Translations under genes and position numbers: made by a program
The notes under the pieces: model-generated
The model's database searches: none
What the model was told of the DNA's origin: nothing
The model's input: only the letters and a program-made list of their open reading frames with translations
Shown: positions 14,875 through 15,232 of the stretch, piece after piece
Position numbering within the stretch: the first letter of the stretch is position 1
Layout: the number at the start of each line of letters is the position of its first letter
DNA from: Ignatzschineria rhizosphaerae
GTDB taxonomy: Bacteria > Pseudomonadota > Gammaproteobacteria > Cardiobacteriales > Wohlfahrtiimonadaceae
Assembly (NCBI RefSeq): GCF_022655595.1
Contig: NZ_CP093379.1
Coordinates: forward strand, 616,501-680,500
Reading direction: 5' to 3'
DNA: 64,000 nucleotides

Positions 14875-15048
14875 TCCTCGTTAGGTGAGGCTCCTATATG
14901 GTTGTAAGCTGTTGCCCAGAAATGTCGAGAGACACCAATGGGTCAGCAGGAATAATCGAATTAAGGTTATTTCTAATACAGTGAGAATGAATAGTTTAGT
15001 CAATGACTATCGGTTCTAGCCATATAGTGCTAAAGTTTTTACGAAGGA
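14875..15048 (+). promoter_or_regulatory. M-box (ykoK leader) Mg2+ riboswitch
   Basis: The sequence reproduces the conserved M-box core as I know it from the Bacillus ykoK/mgtE leader. Landmarks in order are GTTAGGTGAGGCTCCTATATGG, written here in two parts as GTTAGGTGAGG and CTCCTATATGG; then GCCCAGAAATGTCGAGAGAC, CCAATGGGTCA, and near the 3' end GCCATATAGTGCTAAAG. The closing helix P1 pairs TCCTCGT (14875-14881) with ACGAAGGA (15041-15048) with one bulged A. High Mg2+ should fold this aptamer and lower mgtE expression. The next gene downstream is the Mg2+ channel, which fits. Confidence 0.93.
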
Positions 15049-15205
15049 GGGGCCTTAACCCGTATCTTGCGAGTTCCTCGTTAAGGCGTCGAAAGACTAT
15101 TTCTATTAAGGCAAAGGATATCCTTGATAAATTTAGGCTTTCAGAATACGTTATTGTTGAAGCAGCAATAAGCTAGAAATTAGGGGAGATCATAGGAATT
15201 GAGAC
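15049..15205 (+). promoter_or_regulatory. Expression-platform part of the mgtE leader with an alternative P1 partner
   Basis: TTCCTCGTTA at 15074-15083 is an exact copy of 14874-14883, which contains the 5' strand of M-box helix P1. The P1 3' strand (15041-15048) can therefore pair either with the aptamer or with this downstream copy. A nearby hairpin, GCCTTAAC (15052-15059) with GTTAAGGC (15080-15087), overlaps the copy and would compete with it. A second TTAAGGC lies at 15106-15112. This looks like the switching element; the mechanism is inferred. Confidence 0.6.
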
Positions 15206-15232
15206 CAATCTTTATTTGAAGATTGTTTTTTT
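15206..15232 (+). terminator. Candidate attenuator terminator in the mgtE leader
   Basis: Stem CAATCTT (15206-15212) and AAGATTG (15219-15225) with a 6-base loop, directly followed by seven Ts. It lies between the riboswitch and mgtE, so it could be the regulated terminator. The stem is short and AT-rich. From here to the mgtE start (15233-15391) I see no other feature. Confidence 0.6.

Follow-up and report, generated by a model that had tools for sequence, protein, structure and literature searches.

The leader of the magnesium transporter gene mgtE in Ignatzschineria (Gammaproteobacteria, Cardiobacteriales, Ignatzschineriaceae) carries an M-box riboswitch, which probably controls mgtE by ordinary transcription attenuation, in the standard arrangement with a long spacer. 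The window, i.e., the whole 64 kb stretch that was analysed, spans positions 616501–680500 of the 3.07 Mb genome. The aptamer and the gene were observed directly, as were the complementarity between the 3′ side of helix P1 and a distant terminator arm, and the terminator itself as a statistical outlier. The coordinates of these features are given in Table 1.

Table 1. Features of the mgtE leader (window coordinates)
Feature	Position	Strand	Basis or remark
Promoter candidate, TTGCTA-17-TATAAT, with TG preceding the −10 hexamer	14745–14773	+	Comparable pair of hexamers at the corresponding position of L028 and L026
M-box riboswitch aptamer (RF00380)	14870–15056	+	125.4 bits; double changes keep helices paired in six orthologous leaders
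P1 5′ strand	14874–14881	+	Covariance model; first copy of TTCCTCGTTA at 14874–14883
P1 3′ strand	15041–15052	+	Covariance model; paired at 15041–15042 and 15047–15052
Putative antiterminator strand 1, AAGGAGGGGCCTTAA (P1 3′ strand and 5′ arm of hairpin H)	15044–15058	+	Predicted
Hairpin H, abutting P1, GCCTTAAC / GTTAAGGC	15052–15087	+	Kept in orthologous leaders
Second copy of TTCCTCGTTA, in hairpin H (loop and 3′ arm)	15074–15083	+	Not conserved
Putative antiterminator strand 2, TTGAGACCAATCTTT, overlapping the terminator 5′ arm	15199–15213	+	Predicted
Intrinsic terminator candidate (stem of 8 bp with one G-U, ATTT loop, run of seven T)	15206–15232	+	Strict scan
mgtE magnesium transporter, short form (two CBS + MgtE)	15392–16420	+	Pfam; Shine-Dalgarno AGGAGG at 15380–15385

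The Rfam covariance model RF00380 matched the leader with an E-value of 1.1e-27, and the score in Table 1 compares with a gathering score of 44 bits. All mapped model pairs were formed in the window. When the orthologous leaders were aligned, 93% of the cells in the aptamer and hairpin H, taken jointly, were paired and 16 cells were changed on both sides, whereas the same alignment, slid as a control, gave only 0–6 cells of the latter kind. On its score, covariation and gene context, the element at the mgtE locus is a genuine M-box, as had been proposed in the original prediction, together with its gammaproteobacterial host. That prediction had also assumed a contiguous P1 3′ strand, ACGAAGGA. 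This register was dropped in favour of the covariance-model register, in which 14874–14881 pairs with 15041–15042 and 15047–15052, with an internal loop at 15043–15046.

Hairpin H was present next to P1 where it had been predicted. Over six leaders, 88% of its cells were paired, and two pairs had changes on both sides. Its conservation is support rather than proof, because the alignment consisted of six sequences, two of them near-identical, and because its stability in the window alone was not significant (33 of 300 shuffles).

The M-box ends 335 nt before the start of mgtE, which is divergent from trkA. Between the window and the named Ignatzschineria loci, MgtE identity was 82–97%. The only Pfam matches of the window MgtE (342 aa) were to the CBS and MgtE domains, with none to an N-terminal domain. 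A more distant MgtE, in an open frame of ~470 codons, was also seen in some of the relatives.

The strict terminator scan (stem ≥7 plus U-tract) found five sites on the plus strand of the 64 kb, including the one at 15206–15225, compared with ~0.2 expected and 0–1 per shuffle. Only 2 of 200 shuffled leaders contained a strict terminator. Another of the five sites was located just past mgtE, at 16474–16501. With these counts, the terminator in front of mgtE, which had already been suggested as a candidate, looks real. The same scan found no terminator in four orthologous leaders; these negatives are weak, because stems with internal loops, such as that of L002, are missed by the scan.

This terminator has a 5′ arm that could pair with the P1 3′ strand together with the adjoining 5′ arm of hairpin H. 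The duplex had an energy of −10.9 kcal/mol, which was equalled in 4 of 500 shuffles, and 17 of 89 other leader positions in the window paired with the P1 3′ strand equally well. Here, the pairing had played no part in placing the terminator, whose position came from the original prediction and from the scan. For the relatives, where the hairpins used in this comparison were mostly placed by eye, similar complementarity was found in L026 (5 of 500 shuffles) and in L028 (13 of 500, with the hairpin chosen after the complementarity had been seen), and weaker complementarity in L016 (37 of 500). No antiterminator was found in L029, where 484 of 500 shuffles were as good. In local folding at nascent lengths, the P1 3′ strand was paired with the terminator 5′ arm at transcript ends 15214–15223, with ~10 pairs expected, and the terminator took over from end 15226. 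In whole-leader folding with soft constraints, the terminator reached 0.94–0.98 at equilibrium, regardless of whether P1 was favoured or disfavoured. Because the terminator wins at equilibrium in every state, any switching would have to be kinetic.

From the sequence we infer a response to Mg2+, termination in vivo and a direction of regulation that is probably that of an off-switch. In the presence of Mg2+, P1 would form with hairpin H beside it, and the P1 3′ strand would be unavailable. The terminator would then fold, and transcription would stop ahead of mgtE. In the absence of Mg2+, antiterminator strand 1 would pair with strand 2, and the resulting delay of the terminator would allow the polymerase to enter mgtE.

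This mechanism is the one known for the class. M-boxes are described as transcriptional off-switches that use intrinsic terminators (PMC12810186; the class is also described in PMC4072509), and almost invariably they precede Mg2+ transporters (PMC4072509). The M-box of the Bacillus subtilis mgtE/ykoK leader shares with that of the window the aptamer, the gene class and the probable mode of action as a transcriptional off-switch with an intrinsic terminator. Unlike in B. subtilis, the window terminator is located ~150 nt past P1 and the host is a gammaproteobacterium. A search of the available literature found no paper connecting Ignatzschineria with riboswitches.

The genome contains three M-boxes, and at least one was present in 15 of 18 genomes of the family (window genome included). 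By downstream gene, they form three groups, represented in this genome by L002 (mgtE-2), L020 (corA) and the window locus. The L002 M-box (G000:C1:2120473-2120637) is located upstream of a second mgtE, and the L020 M-box (G000:C1:1034276-1034451) upstream of a corA-like gene; both have a strong canonical terminator. An obvious terminator, mostly of −12 to −25 kcal/mol, was found in nearly every leader of the mgtE-2 and corA groups, 24–273 nt from P1. In both groups, when downstream partners of the P1 3′ strand were ranked, the terminator 5′ arm came first or second. Their layout is that of a standard M-box, in which the P1 5′ strand already has a downstream competitor for pairing with the P1 3′ strand. 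The two paralogous M-boxes and that of the window are alike in their aptamers and apparently in the complementarity of the terminator 5′ arm to the P1 3′ strand, whereas the paralogous terminators are far stronger than that of the window. The spacers of L002 and L020 (34–83 nt) are shorter than that of the window; those of the corA loci of G002 and G006 measure 273 nt. The platform had been called unusually long in the original prediction: it is long, but within the family this length is not unusual. Since the terminator arm of the window seems able to pair with the P1 3′ strand and hairpin H 5′ arm, in the manner of the two paralogues, the standard mechanism with a long spacer is likely.

An unlikely alternative is that the aptamer is intact and the platform acts by Rho-dependent termination or translational control through the long leader. 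There is precedent for this in the Mycobacterium tuberculosis pe20 Mbox, the one reported exception in the literature searched, which is translational and Rho-dependent (PMC12810186). The pe20 leader is long, as is that of the window, and the four orthologous leaders without a clear terminator would fit the same mode, as would the stretches with C-over-G values of 2.0–2.6 found just before mgtE in L027, L026 and L029. However, the window terminator is far beyond chance, and both paralogous M-boxes have intrinsic terminators. The pe20 Mbox acts with Rho on a small upstream ORF, and no such ORF was found in the window leader: downstream of the AAGGAGG that lies in the P1 3′ strand there was no suitable start codon within range, and no start was shared with L028. 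A search of the leaders for a small upstream ORF that was conserved and preceded by a Shine-Dalgarno sequence was also negative.

Outside the family, no M-box above the family cut-off was found in 273 other Gammaproteobacteria genomes sampled, which were searched with stricter filters than the family itself. Within the class, M-boxes seem nearly confined to the family of Ignatzschineria, which suggests acquisition by the family ancestor. The window M-box adds a well-supported member to a class in which M-boxes are nearly absent. At the orthologous locus, the M-box appears to have been lost repeatedly among the relatives. Its 3′ half was missing in G003, G005 and L033 (29 bits; remnant at 2274–2445 in L033), only a fossil was found in L035 (about 1988–2203; local score 66 vs a shuffle maximum of 38), and no trace was found upstream of mgtE in L036. 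The mgtE gene was kept in these several Ignatzschineria genomes. The locus thus offers a natural series of one riboswitch in its intact, truncated, fossil and lost states, for which the intact paralogues of the same genomes can serve as controls. Given these losses and the fast divergence of the platform sequence, the riboswitch of the window could also be decaying, with mgtE no longer under its control and regulation left to the other two M-boxes. This is improbable, as the aptamer of the window reaches 125 bits and forms all its mapped model pairs, and as the leaders that retain the aptamer show two-sided changes in its helices.

The ten bases TTCCTCGTTA occur exactly at both positions in the leader, as originally predicted, and the whole genome contains four copies, including these two. 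The P1 5′-strand 10-mer recurred exactly in 21 of 20,000 dinucleotide-shuffled leaders (~0.001), and any aptamer 10-mer recurred in 385 of 5,000 (~0.08). Another aptamer 10-mer, TTATTTCTAA, was also found again downstream. With P1 singled out in advance, the second copy is unusual; without that choice it is less so.

The original prediction made this copy the switch itself, with the P1 3′ strand exchanging between P1 and the second TTCCTCGTTA and displacing hairpin H. We give this little credence. The copy is exact, its pairing and hairpin H are mutually exclusive, and its duplex with the P1 3′ strand was the best downstream duplex in the window (−15.5 kcal/mol); however, 82 of 200 shuffled leaders offered an equally good downstream partner. 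The pairing was matched in 34 of 500 shuffles in the window, and did not exceed chance in L028, L026, L029 and L016 (260, 222, 496 and 188 of 500, respectively). Among five lineages of leader, the exact second copy was found only in the window. In L028, the closest relative (97% MgtE identity), it was altered to TTCTCGTTA, one base short, and it was not recognisable in the L026, L029 and L016 leaders; the original prediction had itself named such a lack of conservation as a refutation. When the platform was folded in isolation, the pairing reached 0.3–0.4, transiently and at transcript ends 15079–15088 only, but in whole-leader folding it did not exceed 0.11, even when P1 was disfavoured. The duplicated 10-mer is real and unconserved, and it is probably not the switching device. 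Located inside hairpin H, the second copy would pair with P1 no more than transiently, and in this species only. It is highly improbable that the platform has three states, in which the P1 3′ strand moves from P1 first to the second copy, a short-lived toehold, and from there to the remote arm of the terminator, with hairpin H and the copy delaying the terminator decision. The duplicated P1 strand leaves existing knowledge of M-boxes unchanged.

The leader also contains a 12-nt inverted repeat (92%), with one half in the 5′ flank of P1 (14863–14874) and the other in the region before the mgtE Shine-Dalgarno sequence (15355–15366). Parts of this repeat were also seen in relatives.
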